In this document: positions 24,530 to 34,895 of the stretch, piece by piece
Layout of the letters: the number at the start of each line of letters is the position of its first letter
Numbering within the stretch: the stretch's first letter is position 1
Assembly: GCA_008501635.1 (NCBI GenBank)
Contig: QQUJ01000010.1
Location: 62,001 to 126,000 of the forward strand
Source of the DNA: Pseudomonadota bacterium
Lineage (GTDB): Bacteria; Pseudomonadota; Gammaproteobacteria; QQUJ01
Direction of reading: 5' to 3'
DNA: 64,000 nt
Made by a program: the position numbers and the translations under genes
The notes under the pieces: generated by a model
What the model saw: only the letters and a program-made list of their open reading frames with translations
What the model was told of the DNA's origin: nothing
The model's database searches: none

Positions 24530-25408
24530 ATGGAACTGGCACTGATAATTCGGATCGGCCTGCCGGTCGCCTTGTTCGCGGTGATGCTGGGCATGGGCAT
24601 GACTCTGGGGGCGGGCGATTTTCGTCGGGTGGTGAATCGGCCACGGGCTTTCGCTCTCGGGTTCTCCGCCCAACTGGTGCTGTTGCCGCTGTTGGCGCTG
24701 GTGTTGGTCGAGTTGTTCAAGCTGCCCGGGGAGTTGGCGGTAGGGCTCCTCGTGCTGAGTTTCTGTCCCAGCGGCACGACGAGCAATCTCTTTTCCTACC
24801 TGGCGCGTGCCGATGTCGCGCTGTCGATCAGCCTGACCGCGGTTGCCTCGGTAGTGACGCCGTTTACCGTTCCGTTGCTTACCCGTTGGGTGCTGGAGTG
24901 GCAGATGGGCGCCGCACAGCCGGTGCCCTTCCCGGTGGTGACGACCATGCTGCAGCTCGCCGTGGTTGTACTGCTGCCGGTTTTGATTGGCATGATCTGG
25001 AAGTCGCGCAGACCGGCGGCATGCCGACGCTGGCAGCCATCGGTGCATCGGGCGTCGGTAGTGCTGTTCGCCACAGTGATACTGTCGATGGTAATCGATC
25101 AGTGGGAACGCCTGGCCCAGTTTCTCGCTCTGTCGGGTGTAGTCTGCCTCGTGATGATCGTCTGCGCCATGGCGTTGGGTTGGGCGGTGGCGCGTATCGG
25201 CCGACTCGATACCGCGCAGACCAAGACCATCAGCATCGAGGTAGGCATGCAGCACGGCGGCATGGCGCTGGTTGTGACCCAGGGCGTGTTGGCCAACCCG
25301 ACCATGTCCATCGTACCGGTGATGTACGGCCTGTTGATGCTGATCCCCATTTTGTTGCTGGTAGCGGTCGCGCGCCTTCATGACCAACGAAACCTTGTCG
25401 CTGGTTAA
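24530..25408 (+). CDS. Bile acid:sodium symporter (BASS)-family transporter
   Basis: I chose the ATG at 24530 (292 residues); a TTG eight codons earlier is less likely. About nine to ten membrane segments are visible. Typical motifs are CPSGTTSNLFSYLARAD in the middle and EVGMQHGGMALV near the C-terminus, which form the crossing sodium and substrate sites. Bacterial members carry bile acids, pantoate, or other organic anions; the substrate is undefined here. The stop codon lies 29 bases inside the following gene. Confidence 0.88.
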   Translation: MELALIIRIGLPVALFAVMLGMGMTLGAGDFRRVVNRPRAFALGFSAQLVLLPLLALVLVELFKLPGELAVGLLVLSFCPSGTTSNLFSYLARADVALSISLTAVASVVTPFTVPLLTRWVLEWQMGAAQPVPFPVVTTMLQLAVVVLLPVLIGMIWKSRRPAACRRWQPSVHRASVVLFATVILSMVIDQWERLAQFLALSGVVCLVMIVCAMALGWAVARIGRLDTAQTKTISIEVGMQHGGMALVVTQGVLANPTMSIVPVMYGLLMLIPILLLVAVARLHDQRNLVAG

Positions 25409-26222
25409 ATCGGCGCGTCCCTTCTCCCTGGTGGTCGCGGTGGTCAGCTGTGGCCTGGGGGTTTACCTGGGACTGCGCGAAACCGTGGCGCCTCTGCTGA
25501 TCGTGGTCGGTGTGCTGGTCGCGGGATTGCTGCTGCAGATCGGCGTCAATCTCATCAACGACCGTTCGGATCTGCACCTGTTGCGGGGCGATGCGCCCGC
25601 AACGAAGACCAGGCGCGCCAGGATACGCCTGAGCTATCGCCTGGGCCTGATCTGTTTCGGCATCGCCGTCGGGATCGGCCTGGCGTTGGTGATGCTGCGT
25701 GGCTGGCCCCTGCTGACCATCGGCATCGCCGGCGTCATCGGCGCCTTCGCCTATACCCTGGAGCCCATCAATTACAAACGCCGCGGCCTGGGCGTGATGA
25801 TGGTCTTCTGGTTGATGGGCGTGATGATGGTGGAGGGCGCCTATCTGGCCGTGACGGGCACGCTTTCGTGGCAGGTCTTCTGGCATGCACTGCCGGTCAG
25901 CTGCCTGGTTTCCCTGTTGCTGCTCAGCAACGAAATCCGCGACATTGAACGCGATCGCGGCGAGGGCGTCGCCACGCTGGCGGTGAGGATAGGGCTGGCC
26001 AGGGCGCGGGGCCTCTTTTGGGCGCTGGCGTTAGCCGCGTTCGCGCTGTCGATCGTCTATTCGCTGATCGGATTGTTGTCCAATCCGCTCTGGTTGATTT
26101 TACCCGTGCCGCTACTGATACCTGTGATGCGTCACCTTTATACCGATGCGAGACAATCGCTTCCGCCCTGGACGGGTAGACTATTGCTGTTGTTTGGGAT
26201 CGGATACGCATTGGCGTTGTAG
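25380..26222 (+). CDS. UbiA-family prenyltransferase (MenA-like)
   Basis: The protein has 280 residues with about eight membrane segments. The first metal-binding motif is N57LINDRSD64 (NxxxDxxD) and the second is N184EIRDIERD192; both bind magnesium-prenyl diphosphate. The segment AYTLEPINYKRRGLG matches the short loop seen in MenA-type 1,4-dihydroxy-2-naphthoate prenyltransferases better than UbiA. It acts in the inner membrane. No other men genes are in the window, so menaquinone synthesis is only suggested. It overlaps the BASS transporter gene by 29 bases. Confidence 0.85.
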   Translation: MTNETLSLVKSARPFSLVVAVVSCGLGVYLGLRETVAPLLIVVGVLVAGLLLQIGVNLINDRSDLHLLRGDAPATKTRRARIRLSYRLGLICFGIAVGIGLALVMLRGWPLLTIGIAGVIGAFAYTLEPINYKRRGLGVMMVFWLMGVMMVEGAYLAVTGTLSWQVFWHALPVSCLVSLLLLSNEIRDIERDRGEGVATLAVRIGLARARGLFWALALAAFALSIVYSLIGLLSNPLWLILPVPLLIPVMRHLYTDARQSLPPWTGRLLLLFGIGYALAL

Positions 26223-26306: not shown

Positions 26307-27827
26307 ATGCCACCGGCTGAATGGCAGCAGCAGGGCTCTGTAAAACGACCTTCGCTTGGTCGCGTAGGGTTGATAGTTGGGCCCGTTGTTTTCCTGTTTG
26401 TGGTGTGGGCGCCCAGTCCGCAAGGGCTGACTGACGTGGCTCAATTCACCGCTGCAGTGGCATTGCTGATGGCCATCTGGTGGATCACCGAGGCGATCCC
26501 CATTCCGGCGACGGCGTTGTTACCCATCGTGTTGTTCCCCCTCTTGGGCGTAGGGAGTGCTGGCGCGGTGGCGGCCAACTATGCTCATCATTTGATCTTT
26601 CTTTTTCTCGGCGGCTTCTGGATAGCGGCGACGCTGGAACGTTGGAATCTGCACCGGCGTATCGCGCTGCACACCATCCGCATCGTCGGCACCAGCCCGC
26701 ACCGCGTGGTGCTGGGTTTTATGGTGGCCACGGCATTTCTCTCCATGTGGCTCAGCAATACCGCAACGACCATGATGATGCTGCCCATCGGTATGGCGGT
26801 GTTGAGTCGGATCGCGCCCGAGGCGTTGCAGCGGGATGCGGGCGAGCCGCTGGTGAACCCCTTCGGCACGGCGCTGATGTTGGGGATCGCCTATGCCGCT
26901 TCGATCGGCGGCGTGGCAACGCTGATCGGGACGCCACCCAATGCGGTGCTGGCTGGAGTGGTGGAGAAGCTCTACGGATTCAAGATCACCTTTGCCGATT
27001 GGATTGTCTTTGGTCTGCCGCTGAGTGTGGTGATGCTGGTGCTGGCGTGGTGGTATCTGACGCGGCTTTCCTTTACGCGCTTGCCGCGGGTGCGCGGTAC
27101 CGGCAAGGAGACGATCCGTAACGAGATTCAACGAATTGGGCCGCTGACCTTTCAGGAAAAAGCGGTGTTGGCAGTCTTCGTGAGCGTGGCGGCTGCCTGG
27201 ATCGGGCACGGACTGGCGCCGTGGACGTGGCTGGCGAAGTTGCAGGACTCATCCATCGCGATAGCGGGCGCCATCGCGCTGTTTCTGCTCCCCGCTAAAG
27301 ATGGTCACGGCGGGCGGCTGCTCGACTGGCCGACAGCGGTGAAGATTCCCTGGGATATCATTCTGCTCTTTGGTGGCGGGTTTGCGTTGGCCGATGGCTT
27401 TGCGCGTAGTGGCCTGGCGGAGTGGATCGCCACGCAACTGGCCGGCCTCTCGGGCGTGGGTTGGGTCGCAATCGTTGCGGCGGTCGCATTGCTTACCATC
27501 TTTCTCACCGAAGTGACCTCCAATACCGCGACCGCCACCATGCTGTTGCCGATCGTTGCGAGCATCGCGGCGGGCGCCGGTATCCATCCCCTGGGGCCGA
27601 TGGCGGCGGCCGCGCTGGCCGCTTCGTTCGCTTTTATGTTACCGGTAGCGACACCGCCCAATGCCGTGGTGTTTGCCAGTCGCTGTGTCTCGATCCCGCA
27701 GATGGCGCGTGCAGGTATCTGGCTCAACTTGCTCGGATTTGGGATGATAACGCTGTTCGTGACCGTGGTTTTGCCGGCAATCTGGGGACTCGATCTGAGC
27801 AACCTGCCCGAAGCCTGGCGCAAGTAG
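26307..27827 (+). CDS. DASS/SLC13-family sodium:anion symporter
   Basis: The protein has 506 residues with about eleven to twelve membrane segments. Two copies of the family's SNT sodium-binding motif are present: SNTATTMMMLP at about 150-160 and SNTATATMLLP at about 405-415, each next to a conserved Pro-rich helix (ATLIGTPPNAV; PVATPPNAV). This matches the divalent anion:sodium symporter family (dicarboxylates, citrate, sulfate). Adjacency to a TRAP transporter suggests organic acid uptake, but the substrate is unproven. Confidence 0.9.
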   Translation: MPPAEWQQQGSVKRPSLGRVGLIVGPVVFLFVVWAPSPQGLTDVAQFTAAVALLMAIWWITEAIPIPATALLPIVLFPLLGVGSAGAVAANYAHHLIFLFLGGFWIAATLERWNLHRRIALHTIRIVGTSPHRVVLGFMVATAFLSMWLSNTATTMMMLPIGMAVLSRIAPEALQRDAGEPLVNPFGTALMLGIAYAASIGGVATLIGTPPNAVLAGVVEKLYGFKITFADWIVFGLPLSVVMLVLAWWYLTRLSFTRLPRVRGTGKETIRNEIQRIGPLTFQEKAVLAVFVSVAAAWIGHGLAPWTWLAKLQDSSIAIAGAIALFLLPAKDGHGGRLLDWPTAVKIPWDIILLFGGGFALADGFARSGLAEWIATQLAGLSGVGWVAIVAAVALLTIFLTEVTSNTATATMLLPIVASIAAGAGIHPLGPMAAAALAASFAFMLPVATPPNAVVFASRCVSIPQMARAGIWLNLLGFGMITLFVTVVLPAIWGLDLSNLPEAWRK

Positions 27828-28025
27828 CCGGGAGGGATTGGTTTGACCGCAGCGGCGTGCTGCACTGCAAATCGTCATCGAATTCTGATTTGCGGGTTGC
27901 GAGCAGTACAACTACAGGTTGCGCTGCCCAATAGCCTCAACTACGCTCAAACATGTTTACGGGGAGGGACCGACCTTCCCCTTCTTGTGGATGATAAAAA
28001 TTAAGAGTTGAGGAGGAATGTCCCA

Positions 28026-29120
28026 ATGAAGCGTCGAGAATTCATTACAAAAAGCGCAGTCGGCCTCGGGGCCGTCGCCGGAGCGGCCACGATCGCCGCA
28101 CCTGCTATTGCCAAGGAGCGCATCGAGATCACCATGGTCACCACCTGGCCGCGGGATTTCCCAGGGCTGGGCACCGGCGCCCAGCGTTTCGCCGCGCGCC
28201 TGGCGGAAATGAGCGGTGGCCGCATGCAGGTCAATTATTTTGCCGGCGGCGAGCGCGTCAAGCCTTTCGATTCGTTTGACGAAGTGGCATCCGGTAACGC
28301 CCAGATGTACCACGGGGCCGATTACTACTGGAAAGGCAAGCACCCCAGTTGGGCCTACTTCACCGCGGTGCCATTCGGTCTGACCTATACCGAGATGAAT
28401 GCCTGGATTCGCTTCGGCGGCGGGCAGGAGTTGTGGGATGAACTCGGCGCCGAGTTCGGCATCAAGGGTGTGATGTGCGGCAATACCGGCGTGCAGATGG
28501 GGGGTTGGTTCCGCAAAGAGATCAATACCGCCGCCGATCTCAAAGGCCTCAAGATGCGCATACCCGGCCTGGGTGGCGATGTCATGGCCAAACTCGGCGC
28601 TTCACCGGTTTCACTGCCGGGCGGTCAGATCTATGAGAACCTCGTTTCGGGATCGATCGATGCCACCGAGTGGGTGGGTCCCTGGAACGACGCCTTCATG
28701 AAGTTCTACGAGGCGGCCAAGTACTACTACTATCCGGGCATGCACGAGCCGGGTGCGATGCTGGCCGTCGGGATAAACAAGAAGTTCTGGGAAGGTCTCT
28801 CCAAATCCGACAAGTTGATGGTTGAGGCGGCTGCGTCGATGGAAAACGACGTGATGATGGCCGAGTACAATGCGAAAAATGGTGAGTACCTTGCCAAACT
28901 CATAAAAGAGCAAGGCGTCAAGTTGCGTGAGTTCAGCGACGAAATCTACGACAGCTTTGGTGAAGCGGCCGAGTCGGTTTTCCAGACCGTACGCGAGCAC
29001 AGTCCGCTGGCCAAGCGCATCCACGAGAGTTTCGTACGAGCCCGCGCCGATGTCGGCGCCTGGGCGAAAATCTCCGACCAGGCGTACGTCGCACAGCGTA
29101 ACCGGGTTCTCGGACTCTGA
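28026..29120 (+). CDS. TRAP transporter substrate-binding protein (DctP-type, COG4663/FcbT1-like)
   Basis: I chose the ATG at 28026, preceded by GAGGAGG about 8 bases upstream; it has 364 residues. The N-terminus MKRREFITKSAVGLGAVAG is a twin-arginine-type signal, which is typical of the mannitol/chloroaromatic TRAP group. The mature domain has the DctP fold with FDSFDEVASGNAQMYHGADYYW and, near the middle, LKGLKMRIPGLGGDVMAKLG followed by the conserved Arg and the dimer helix. It captures an organic acid in the periplasm. A hairpin follows and then the two permease genes. Confidence 0.92.
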   Translation: MKRREFITKSAVGLGAVAGAATIAAPAIAKERIEITMVTTWPRDFPGLGTGAQRFAARLAEMSGGRMQVNYFAGGERVKPFDSFDEVASGNAQMYHGADYYWKGKHPSWAYFTAVPFGLTYTEMNAWIRFGGGQELWDELGAEFGIKGVMCGNTGVQMGGWFRKEINTAADLKGLKMRIPGLGGDVMAKLGASPVSLPGGQIYENLVSGSIDATEWVGPWNDAFMKFYEAAKYYYYPGMHEPGAMLAVGINKKFWEGLSKSDKLMVEAAASMENDVMMAEYNAKNGEYLAKLIKEQGVKLREFSDEIYDSFGEAAESVFQTVREHSPLAKRIHESFVRARADVGAWAKISDQAYVAQRNRVLGL

Positions 29121-29177: not shown

Positions 29178-29191
29178 GTGCCGCTCAATTG

Positions 29192-30247
29192 ATGCAAAAC
29201 CACACTGATATCGTCGCAACCTTGCCGCAGTCCGTTCCAGGCGCTGTCTCCGGTTTGCTATTGCGTATCCTCGCCCTCTCCATCGTCGCGGTCACTCTTC
29301 TTTTTATCGTTAACAATGTCCTTACCTACTGGTGGGAGTGGCCGGGCCCCGCCGCGTTTCTCGGCCAGCTTGGTTGGCCGGCCTTTGACAAACCCGATGA
29401 ACCGCTGACGGGTGGCGTCTACGCCCTGGGTTTGTTGCAGGCCAGTAGTTATCCCGGCTTTATCGCCGGTATCGCCGGCTACGTTTTTTTGACGCGCGAT
29501 CGCGCCTTGCGCGCCGATGCCGGGATGCTCTCGTCATTTTCCGCTTACATCATCCGCGCTGCCGTCTGGATTGTGATCGCGGTCGGAATCGTCGACATGC
29601 TGATCTCATTCCTACGGGTCGAAGGGTTTTTGGGTCCGTTCCTGAGTGAAACACGCATCAACGATCTCGGGCGTCCCTCGTTCCGCGGGCTCTACGTCCA
29701 CTATCCGCTGGTGGTGCTGGCCCTTGTTGTCGCCTTTTTCGTGCGCTCCGTGAACTTCAGCTGGCTGGCGTTTCTGGTGGTGGTTGCCGAAGCGCAGATC
29801 GTGCTGTCGCGCTTTGTTTTTTCCTATGAACAAGCCTTCATGGGAGACCTGGTCCGGTTCTGGTACGCCGCGCTGTTTCTGTTTGCCAGCGCGCATGCCC
29901 TTGTCCACGAAGCCCATGTGCGCGTGGATGTCCTCTATGTGCACTTCAGCAAGCGGGGTAAGGCGTGGTCCAATGGGCTGGGATCGCTCTTTTTGGGTAT
30001 TCCGCTGTGTTGGGTCATTCTTGGTACCGGGATGGCGGACCGGGGCAGCAGTATCACCAGCCCGCTGCTGACCTATGAAATATCGCAGAGCGGATACGGC
30101 ATGTACGTCAAGTATCTGATGGCCGGCTTCCTGGTGGTGTTTGCGGTCTCGATGGCGGTGCAGTTTGCGAGTTATTTCCTGACCTGCATGGCAGATCTTC
30201 GTGGTGAGCCGGACGGCGAGCAGGAATCAACGGATGCCGAGATCTGA
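29192..30247 (+). CDS. TRAP transporter small permease (DctQ-type), enlarged form
   Basis: The protein has 351 residues from the ATG at 29192; a TTG one codon earlier is possible. At least seven hydrophobic segments are visible, against four in ordinary DctQ proteins of about 160-200 residues. The DctQ domain is the C-terminal half (VRFWYAALFLFASAHALVHEAHVRVDVLYVHF). The N-terminal half adds extra membrane helices, including LLLRILALSIVAVTLLFIVNN. This resembles the COG4665/FcbT2-type larger subunit. It pairs with the large permease downstream in the inner membrane. Confidence 0.85.
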   Translation: MQNHTDIVATLPQSVPGAVSGLLLRILALSIVAVTLLFIVNNVLTYWWEWPGPAAFLGQLGWPAFDKPDEPLTGGVYALGLLQASSYPGFIAGIAGYVFLTRDRALRADAGMLSSFSAYIIRAAVWIVIAVGIVDMLISFLRVEGFLGPFLSETRINDLGRPSFRGLYVHYPLVVLALVVAFFVRSVNFSWLAFLVVVAEAQIVLSRFVFSYEQAFMGDLVRFWYAALFLFASAHALVHEAHVRVDVLYVHFSKRGKAWSNGLGSLFLGIPLCWVILGTGMADRGSSITSPLLTYEISQSGYGMYVKYLMAGFLVVFAVSMAVQFASYFLTCMADLRGEPDGEQESTDAEI

Positions 30248-30370
30248 CGTGCCTGCCGGATGCATCATGTTCGCGGGTTCTATGGCCCGCGCGCACCGCC
30301 GGTGCGTGTGGTACGGGTATCATCCGGCCATGGTCACTTCAGAATCATAAGGCGAGGCATACGCAAAACA

Positions 30371-33028
30371 ATGGAACTCGTCTTTCTCGCCCTCCTCGTA
30401 CTGCTGATGGTTGTAGCGCTGACCTCCGGTTTCCCCGTGGCGTTTGCGCTACCCGGTTCTGCCATCCTGACCATTACGATCGCCGCACTCTTCGGCTACT
30501 TCATCACCGGCAATCCCGATGCCTACTTCGCGCAGGGGGGGCCGGTACAGTGGTTGACGGCGGGTGTTACCAACTTTCGCAGCCTCTACTGGGATGTGGA
30601 GCGCGACACGCTGATCGCGATCCCGCTGTTTATCTTCATGGGCATCATGCTCCAGCGTTCAAAGATCGCCGAGGATCTGCTGGTCACGATGGCGCAGCTG
30701 TTCGGCCCCGTCCCCGGCGGCCTGGGTATCTCGGTGGTTTTCGTAGGCGCGTTACTCGCCGCTACAACGGGTATTGTCGGCGCGACGGTGATTGCGATGG
30801 GGCTGATCTCCCTGCCCGCGATGCTGCGTAACAACTACTCCAAGACATTGGCCACCGGCACGATCTGCGCCTCCGGGACTCTGGGGCAGATCATCCCGCC
30901 CTCGATCGTCCTGATCATTCTTGCCGATCAGCTCTCCAGCGCGGTCGATCAGGCGAGCACCATGCGCAAGGCCGATTTCAAGGAGGCGACGGGCGAGTTC
31001 TCCATGCCATCGGAGTTCGACATCACCTCCGCCAGCGCGGGCGATATGTTCATGGGCGCGTTCATCCCCGGACTGGTGCTGGTCGGCATCTACATGCTGT
31101 ATATCCTGATCTCTGCTCTGGTGCGCCCCAAAACGGCGCCCCCGGTGCATTTTGAAGGGAAGTTCGATCGTCAGTTCGCTCTCAAGGTATTCCTTGCGCT
31201 GGTACCACCGCTGACCCTGATCTTCGCCGTGTTGGGTTCGATCGTGCTCGGCATCGCGACCGTCAATCAGGCGGGGGCCATCGGCGCCATCGGTGCGATG
31301 ATCATGGGAAGCTATCGTCTCGCTGCCGGCAAGCGCAACGCCTACTACCCGGCGATACTCGCGTCTGCGTCGCTCATCGTTATTTTCTCGGCCCTGGCGT
31401 TCTTCACCATCAATGTCAAGAACATGCAAACTGCGACCGACGTGCTCGCCGTCGTGGTGGCAGGAATCGGTGTGGCCGGTCTGTCCGCCGCCATCGCCTG
31501 GAGCGCCTGGCGGGCGTACAAGGTCGAGAACACCTTGCGCGAAGTGATGATGGCCACGGCGCACACAACGTCCATGGTCTTCATTATTCTCATCGGCGCT
31601 GCCATGCTGACCTCGGCGTTCCGCGCCTTCGGCGGCGAGGAGTTGGTGCGCGATTTCCTCACCGGACTGCCCGGCGGTTTCTGGACGCAGTTCATCGTTG
31701 TCATGGCGGTCATCTTCCTGCTCGGTTTCTTTCTCGACTTCATCGAGATTGCGGTGGTCGTCGTGCCCATCGTCGCCCCCATTCTTTTGGCCGACCCCAG
31801 CGCGAACATCACGGCGGTTTGGCTGGGTGTGATGGTGGGGCTCAATATCCAGACGTCGTTTCTGACACCACCCTTCGGTTTTGCGCTGTTCTATTTGCGG
31901 GGTGTGTCACCCCCGGAGGTCAAGACGACGCACATTTACAAAGGTGCGGTGGCATTTATCGTGCTGCAACTGATCGGCTTGACGGTCGCCGGCGTCTATC
32001 CGAGTCTGGTCAACTACCTGCCCCAGCGTGCTTACCTGACATCGGACACAGCGCCGCCCCCGGTGAATCCCCGCCTGCAGGACTGCCTCGAAGACTACCT
32101 TTTCGACTACTACGATGAGCGCGGTGAAGAGCTGCGCCGCGCCACTGCCAGGATGCAGGCGCTGGATATCGGTTATCTGCCGAAGGACTATCGCGATCAA
32201 CTGGAGGCGAGCCTGGCCAAGGCGGCCGCCACGTTTGATTATGTCGCCCGGGTACGCGCGGCAACGGCGGTTGCGAGCGAATACGCCGTCGACTATCGTC
32301 CGCTGCAACGCGACGTGCGCCAGATGCAGTTCGAGATCCGCAAGATGGAGAAGAAGCTGGAGGAGCACGAGCGTAATCTCAACTGGTTCTCCAGCAGCGG
32401 CGACGAGGAACGGGCGCAGCGCTTGCAAAGCAGGATCGCGCGGGTCCGTGCCGAGAGGGAGGCGATTGCCGCGCGCATTCCCAGTGATTGGAAAGCGACA
32501 CACGATGGCTACTCCAAACTCTCCAAGGAGGAGAAGCTGGCTCGCCTCGCCTACCGGCGCAATGTGGATGAGGCTTACGAGGGTATCGTTGGCCTGCGCG
32601 ACCTCCTCAGCCAAAGCAGTGAACTGGCCGCCCTGGAAGGCGATATTGTTCAGCTGCAATCAGTGATCAATGAGCAAACCGCCGCGCAAGCGACCGAATC
32701 GATCCAGGCGGTTGAACGGCAGCTGGAAAGCATAGCGGGGGGCAGCGCAACCAAGTCCCTGCTCTACAAAGCGCGACGCGCGTTGCGTGGCGACTCACCC
32801 AGGGGTGCGGAAGCGCTGGAGTGGTTGGCGCAGGGAATCGCGCAGTATCGGGCCGACGTGGCCTGGCTGACCCGCGCCTCCTCGCAGCTGCTGTCCGCGC
32901 TGAATGAGTACGAGGCGGTGATTCGTCACTCGATTGGACTGCGGCAACAGAAGCGTTTGACAACCGCTGAAGCGGAGGAGATCGCAGCATGCCAGGCAGA
33001 GCATCGGGACGTCTCGCTGGCCTTCTGA
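30371..33028 (+). CDS. TRAP transporter large permease (DctM-type) with long C-terminal coiled-coil domain
   Basis: I chose the ATG at 30371, giving 885 residues. Residues 1-540 form the DctM-type channel with about twelve to fifteen membrane segments (conserved GFPVAFALPGSAIL, VERDTLIAIPLFIFMGIML, SFLTPPFGFALFYLRGV). From about 545 to 885 there is a soluble, charged region that ordinary DctM proteins of about 430-600 residues lack. It includes heptad-like helices at about 640-700 (RQMQFEIRKMEKKLEEHERN; ERAQRLQSRIARVRAEREAI) and further helices to the end. The reading frame is continuous, so this is a natural fusion rather than an artefact visible here. The tail's function is unknown. Confidence 0.88.
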   Translation: MELVFLALLVLLMVVALTSGFPVAFALPGSAILTITIAALFGYFITGNPDAYFAQGGPVQWLTAGVTNFRSLYWDVERDTLIAIPLFIFMGIMLQRSKIAEDLLVTMAQLFGPVPGGLGISVVFVGALLAATTGIVGATVIAMGLISLPAMLRNNYSKTLATGTICASGTLGQIIPPSIVLIILADQLSSAVDQASTMRKADFKEATGEFSMPSEFDITSASAGDMFMGAFIPGLVLVGIYMLYILISALVRPKTAPPVHFEGKFDRQFALKVFLALVPPLTLIFAVLGSIVLGIATVNQAGAIGAIGAMIMGSYRLAAGKRNAYYPAILASASLIVIFSALAFFTINVKNMQTATDVLAVVVAGIGVAGLSAAIAWSAWRAYKVENTLREVMMATAHTTSMVFIILIGAAMLTSAFRAFGGEELVRDFLTGLPGGFWTQFIVVMAVIFLLGFFLDFIEIAVVVVPIVAPILLADPSANITAVWLGVMVGLNIQTSFLTPPFGFALFYLRGVSPPEVKTTHIYKGAVAFIVLQLIGLTVAGVYPSLVNYLPQRAYLTSDTAPPPVNPRLQDCLEDYLFDYYDERGEELRRATARMQALDIGYLPKDYRDQLEASLAKAAATFDYVARVRAATAVASEYAVDYRPLQRDVRQMQFEIRKMEKKLEEHERNLNWFSSSGDEERAQRLQSRIARVRAEREAIAARIPSDWKATHDGYSKLSKEEKLARLAYRRNVDEAYEGIVGLRDLLSQSSELAALEGDIVQLQSVINEQTAAQATESIQAVERQLESIAGGSATKSLLYKARRALRGDSPRGAEALEWLAQGIAQYRADVAWLTRASSQLLSALNEYEAVIRHSIGLRQQKRLTTAEAEEIAACQAEHRDVSLAF

Positions 33029-34157: not shown

Positions 34158-34895
34158 TCAGGGTTTGGTGCCCACATGCAGGCAGGCGATACCGAAGGAG
34201 AGGTTGCGGAAAGTGACGTCGCTCAGCCCGGCCGTCTCCATGAGCGCTTTCATCTCCTCCTGGTCCGGAAACTTGCGGATCGACTCCACCAGATACGTAT
34301 AGGCCTCCGGCGCACGCGCCACCCAGGCGCCAAGCCGTGGAATAACCAGAAACGAGTAGGCGTTGTAGAAGGGACGCAGCCAGGCAGCGGGCTTGGAGAA
34401 CTCCAGGCAAAGACAGCGGCCACCCGGCTTGAGGACACGGGTGATCTCGGCAAGAGCACGGGGCATGCTGGTGACGTTGCGGATGCCGAAGGCGATGGTG
34501 AGCGCGTCGACGGAATGGTCCGCCAGGGGGATCGATTCGCCGATCCCGGCCAGATAGCTGACGCCCGCCCCGGTGCGCGCCCGCCCCGCGTTCATCATCG
34601 CGAGGCTGGGATCCACGATCACCACGCGGCGACCGGCACCGCGCAACTGACGTGCCACGTCTCCGGTGCCGCCGGCCAGATCGACGAGCAGTTCGACGGG
34701 TTGGCTGAGGGTGGTTTTCACCAGGTTTCGTTTCCACAACCGGTGGATACCGAAACTCATCAGATCGTTCATGAGATCGTAACGCGGTGCTACCTGCTCG
34801 AAGACGCGCCGAATGCGGCGGCTGCGCTCGTCGCTCGCCACGCGCTGATAACCGAAGGTTTCGTCGAGAGTGTGATGGCCTTCAGGCTGCTTCAT
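34158..34895 (-). CDS. ubiE: Demethylubiquinone/demethylmenaquinone C-methyltransferase
   Basis: The protein has 245 residues. UbiE hallmarks are FGYQRVASDERSRRIRRVFEQ, APRYDLMNDLMSFGIHRLWKR, motif I LVDLAGGTGDVARQL (about 70-84), and NVTSMPRALAEITRVLKPGGR. It methylates the quinone ring carbon in ubiquinone and menaquinone synthesis. It lies 74 bases upstream of the ferredoxin-reductase gene, probably in one transcript. The UbiA-type prenyltransferase gene at 25380 could serve the same pathway. Confidence 0.95.
   Translation of the reverse strand: MKQPEGHHTLDETFGYQRVASDERSRRIRRVFEQVAPRYDLMNDLMSFGIHRLWKRNLVKTTLSQPVELLVDLAGGTGDVARQLRGAGRRVVIVDPSLAMMNAGRARTGAGVSYLAGIGESIPLADHSVDALTIAFGIRNVTSMPRALAEITRVLKPGGRCLCLEFSKPAAWLRPFYNAYSFLVIPRLGAWVARAPEAYTYLVESIRKFPDQEEMKALMETAGLSDVTFRNLSFGIACLHVGTKP

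Follow-up and report, generated by a model that had tools for sequence, protein, structure and literature searches.

This locus raises the question of why the large permease (DctM) of a TRAP transporter continues into a long soluble extension, and what that extension does. The frame lies at 30371-33028 on the plus strand of the window, the 64,000-nucleotide stretch of DNA that was analysed, and comprises 885 codons without a stop. A further in-frame ATG occurs upstream, at 30260; homologue alignments begin at the Met encoded at 30371 (consensus MEL...). The Pfam model for DctM (PF06808) matches with E 1.5e-61, scoring 208.9 bits over three stretches against a curated cut-off of 23.8. The NCBIfam model of the same name, TIGR00786, returns 250.3 bits, under its cut-off of 268.45, probably because of insertions, and the protein is filed here by its Pfam family. 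The tailed protein belongs to that family and should work as a TRAP permease.

Residues 1-555 (30371-32035) form the membrane (elevator) part, which matches SiaM, SiaQM and IseQM in sequence and fold. Its fold match is to 7qha_B (Z 13.7, with low model confidence in the membrane part); in the full-length AlphaFold2 model this part is poor, while the tail has a pLDDT near 92. Inspection shows the twin-proline motif described for the Na sites (PMC9971032) at both of them, PP 176-177 and PP 500-501, in stretches strongly conserved across 72 sequences. Hydropathy across 72 sequences and comparison with relatives locate an insertion at residues 320-385 (31328-31525) with two hydrophobic segments; it is common to relatives of 526-544 aa and absent from those of 460 aa. 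The solved SiaQM (7qe5, 7qha, 8thi, 8y4w) and IseQM (9pym) transporters share the family and, by sequence and model, the elevator fold, but they transport other substrates, end right after the last helix, and have neither a tail nor a long DctQ extension. The present protein does not stop after the last transport-domain helix but runs on for 329 residues more, making the system a variant of the TRAP transporter. Among the roughly 16 DctM frames of the source genome, no other carries a tail, in keeping with the statement of the initial annotation that DctM-type subunits ordinarily end earlier.

The fusion recurs widely. When 84,980 GTDB species genomes were scanned with the full protein, 80 loci were retained. 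They are 53-68% identical to it, in nearly all cases over residues 1-885, and come from Gamma- and Alphaproteobacteria, SAR11 (Pelagibacteraceae), SAR324 and Thermodesulfobacteriota; cultured bacteria (Sneathiella, Reinekea, Cocleimonas) also have tailed DctM proteins. In 79 of the 80 tailed loci the frame is continuous over about 885-930 codons or is interrupted solely by a contig end. This confirms the earlier claim that the frame runs on into a fused soluble module, and it excludes the frameshift joining two genes that the initial annotation had itself set against that claim. In the 67 other aligned loci the tail is present as well, at 26-45% identity to that of the window. One homologue, in L033 (5991-8531), is frameshifted into 438 + 408 codons, and its dctP into 203 + 175; the splits reflect either a low-quality assembly or real decay.

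Searches for the tail alone and in fusions, proposed in the initial annotation, were run as a tail-only protein search of 369 genomes of the class and a profile search of 398 genomes of the phylum. Full-length copies were found in 10 and 6 other genomes, respectively, always in a long permease frame of 750-903 aa, the shortest of which ends at a contig edge. Full-length tails thus occur exclusively in DctM frames: across the 369 and 398 genomes there was no stand-alone tail and none on a non-DctM protein, the remaining matches being short coiled-coil ones. None was found in viral contigs or plasmids.

The tail domain spans residues 557-885 (32039-33025). The last membrane helix (AlphaFold2 helices 519-542 and 544-557) precedes it, which puts its start near residue 557. 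The initial annotation had recognised the tail but gave it slightly wide bounds, 545-885 and 340 residues instead of 329. The structure prediction that it suggested was carried out on the tail alone, and AlphaFold2 returned a mean pLDDT of 94.2 and a pTM of 0.86; by this model the tail is a compact folded helical domain, more than a coiled coil. The long helices of the model run over residues 605-676, 679-701 and 707-747, and the hydrophobic period of 3.45-3.55 in helix 605-676 and in its part 640-676 is compatible with a heptad. The heptad-like segments noted at about 640-700 hold up, but to call the tail a coiled coil falls short of the compact fold predicted for it.

Four parts can be distinguished along the tail. 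A junction with the conserved columns TSxTAPPPxNPRLQxC (32039-32086) ends in Cys572. A long-helix stalk, residues 605-747 (32183-32611), is heptad-like and weakly conserved. A four-helix-bundle-like part, residues 746-839 (32606-32887), was recognised by VIA-align. The conserved C-terminal peptide, residues 853-885 (32927-33025), reads IGLRxQ...C874xxHRDISLxF-end, with a final Phe that is invariant among uncut sequences. Conservation is accordingly high at both ends of the tail and low in its middle.

No curated Pfam or NCBIfam family scores above its cut-off after about residue 556, and no Pfam family recurs consistently among 68 tails, which give scattered coiled-coil matches only. Foldseek identified no known fold for the tail (best E 0.3). 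VIA-align gave Z scores of about 8-10, with a maximum of 10.3, over 83-107 residues at acceptable rmsd; these fall within the generic range for helical bundles, so no claim is made of a relative or of a new fold. Neither program found a solved structure resembling the whole tail, an absence that is no proof, and no published description was found in the literature searched, which missed most subscription papers. The tail domain appears to be undescribed so far.

Several lines of evidence place the tail, very probably, in the periplasm. The cryo-EM structure of SiaM is N-out/C-out, with TM10-12 part of the transport domain (PMC9971032), and the authors of the FnSiaQM structure likewise put the C-terminus of M in the periplasm (PMC11801797). 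Residues 435-552 of the query align to residues 500-612 of the 616 in HiSiaT, up to 4 residues before its end, so the tail begins where those proteins stop; because the solved SiaM permeases are N-out/C-out, it should emerge on the periplasmic side. The hydrophobic segments in the 320-385 insertion are even in number, and so leave the side of the C-terminus unchanged. Cytoplasmic loops are expected to carry net positive charge, and the loop preceding the last helix is net positive (2.12 Lys + Arg vs 0.64 Asp + Glu).

The cysteines of the tail point the same way. None of 72 sequences lacks Cys572, and all 70 untruncated ones have Cys874; exactly two cysteines occur in each of 93 distinct complete tails, the second always 12 residues before the end. 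With tail sequences as diverged as those compared above, such constancy reflects selection and not recent descent. The membrane parts of the DctM homologues have 0-5 cysteines at scattered positions. The two-cysteine pattern looks like that of an exported disulfide protein, and Cys572 and Cys874 are probably joined. Against this, the source genome, 98% complete, gave no match to DsbB (PF02600) or VKOR (PF07884), although DsbA-family proteins were found in it; the DsbA family includes other enzymes as well. With the tail in the periplasm, a binding protein or an envelope partner is favoured over cytoplasmic regulation.

The gene order is dctP-dctQ-dctM, with three adjacent Pfam matches, and the same order is found in homologous loci. 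The first gene, dctP (28008-29120, plus strand; likely start ATG 28026), encodes a substrate-binding protein with a TAT signal (Pfam DctP, E 8.3e-56), and its best PDB match is TakP/SmoM, 2hzk (E 5e-77). The TakP residues that contact pyruvate and the cation, Tyr100, Gln156, Arg177, Glu214, Trp215 and Glu240, are identical in all six positions, which makes 2-oxo (or 2-hydroxy) acids the likely substrate, as judged from sequence. TakP is 365 residues long, and the alignment reaches its residue 352; this is within the region, 326-365, of the long C-terminal helix that is swapped in the TakP dimer. The TakP/SmoM system (2hzk/2hzl), whose dctQ and dctM genes are also adjacent in Cereibacter (Rhodobacter) sphaeroides, has the same receptor family and the same P-Q-M set. 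What sets the present system apart is the 329-residue tail on M and some 190 extra residues on Q; the close tail-less relatives that have TakP-like receptors are L144-L146 and L151.

The small permease gene, dctQ (29189-30247, plus strand), encodes 352 aa, roughly double the normal length, and matches Pfam DctQ only over residues 205-326 (E 4.1e-8). Hydropathy across 76 relatives indicates roughly 8 hydrophobic segments. About four of these are extra segments in the first 189 or so residues, a membrane extension (residues 1-189, 29189-29755) that has no Pfam match and is found in all uncut tailed loci. Of 83 tailed loci, 80 have a DctQ of at least 300 aa when counted from the first Met; two of the three shorter ones are cut by a contig start, and the third, in L055, is a 334-codon frame aligned from residue 24. 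DctQ proteins beside tail-less DctM in most cases begin to align near residue 189 (range 173-205), with the exception of L033, which is tailed and frameshifted. In the sample examined, the DctQ extension is thus found strictly with the tail. An apparent natural Q-M fusion in L059 proved to be just an overlapping open frame.

Across lineages, the homologous loci have no recurring neighbour gene besides dctP and dctQ, so the partner of the tail probably lies within the operon, in the tail itself or in the envelope. Other genes near these operons were assigned by eye. In SAR11 the flanks hold genes resembling FAD-linked lactate/glycolate dehydrogenase and 2-hydroxyacid dehydrogenase. In the window, a DASS-like anion/Na symporter (26307-27827) immediately precedes the TRAP operon, which makes two organic-acid carriers neighbours, and quinone genes resembling UbiA and UbiE stand on both sides (25380-26222 and 34158-34895).

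In a maximum-likelihood tree of the membrane parts, all tailed permeases form one clade with 100/100 support, and the single unlabelled row inside it is the frameshifted L033. The tail-less permeases L144, L145, L146 and L151 (the last from the source genome) and the second copies of L049 and L054 fall outside this clade, at 41-45% identity. Deep branches are weakly supported, and the sister tail-less group is uncertain. Both the tail and the DctQ extension arose within this one clade, so that their association amounts to a single event, not many. One genome, G630, has two tailed copies, L148 and L149, the latter being the most diverged (50% identical) and the first to branch.

The most likely function of the tail, though predicted and held tentatively, is that together with the extended DctQ it makes up a periplasmic platform on which a TakP-like binding protein, probably a dimer, docks. 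The system would be a DctPQM TRAP importer of the alpha-keto-acid (TakP-like) type; in its large permease, the final helix of the moving (elevator) domain would lead straight into a fused helical domain on the periplasmic face. A probable disulfide between the two end cysteines would close the tail into a loop, with the conserved ends close to the membrane and the variable long helices reaching into the periplasm. There the tail and the enlarged DctQ may hold or position the binding protein over the permease, raising an otherwise weak affinity and making substrate hand-over productive. TakP is a tight dimer, for which a membrane-bound dimer model has been proposed (PMC1839085), and the affinity between P and QM is weak in HiSiaP, with a KD of about 65 uM (PMC10942642). 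Against docking, the close tail-less relatives L144-L146 and L151 likewise have TakP-like binding proteins, so a receptor of this type can do without a tail. A stronger form, in which a dimeric binding protein is docked permanently by the tail, one lobe taking up substrate as the other delivers it to the channel, is improbable; if true, it would mean a TRAP transporter using the membrane-bound pathway so far only hypothesised for TakP.

Nearly as likely as the docking platform, if doubtful when taken by itself, is a structural brace. The tail would then pack against both the extended DctQ and the scaffold, or else pair with a second permease, and would stabilise the QM complex or restrict elevator travel with no contact to the binding protein. 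The strict co-occurrence of the DctQ extension with the tail suits this arrangement, as does the conservation of the tail ends, which are expected to be the most conserved part if packed on the membrane part; HiSiaQM, moreover, is able to form dimers (PMC10942642). On the other side, the co-occurrence amounts to a single evolutionary event, and by hydropathy most of the DctQ extension lies in the membrane and its loops are short, which would give a 329-residue domain little to grip.

It is unlikely, though somewhat less so than permanent docking, that the tail serves as an envelope anchor or clustering device that binds, for example, peptidoglycan, a lipoprotein or other transporters. Its predicted periplasmic location and its long-helix stalk and bundle, which are of the spacer kind, would fit such a role, but no cell-wall-binding or other known family was matched in the tail and the neighbourhood offers no extra conserved gene. 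A cytoplasmic regulatory or partner-binding module is very unlikely. The tail is charged, helical and soluble, and regulatory C-terminal tails of such a kind exist on other transporters; the C-out orientation of SiaM, the parity kept by the two inserted hydrophobic segments, the positive loop before the last helix and the invariant cysteine pair all speak against it. The initial annotation had proposed a regulatory, clustering or partner-binding module, and of these three partner binding is plausible, while no evidence was found for regulation or clustering. An assembly artefact, frameshift or chance read-through, of the sort that the frameshifted L033 homologue proves can occur, is refuted by the homologues, since 80 loci in many lineages preserve the tail with constant length and end motif, and has practically no probability left.

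The tail gives a handle on two questions, how TRAP binding proteins engage the permease and why TakP-type receptors dimerise, and its added extramembrane size should be of help to cryo-EM; its occurrence in SAR11 and in cultured bacteria makes it accessible to experiment. A tail-less sister Tak-type TRAP system, L144 of genome G380, has an M protein that is 45% identical and ends at 526 aa, and a TakP-like P protein. Its DctQ (ORF from base 771, plus strand) instead contains, between the first two membrane segments, an Ala/Glu-rich coiled coil some 90 residues long, in a loop predicted to be periplasmic; this single case hints that a helical arm in the periplasm may be needed repeatedly.
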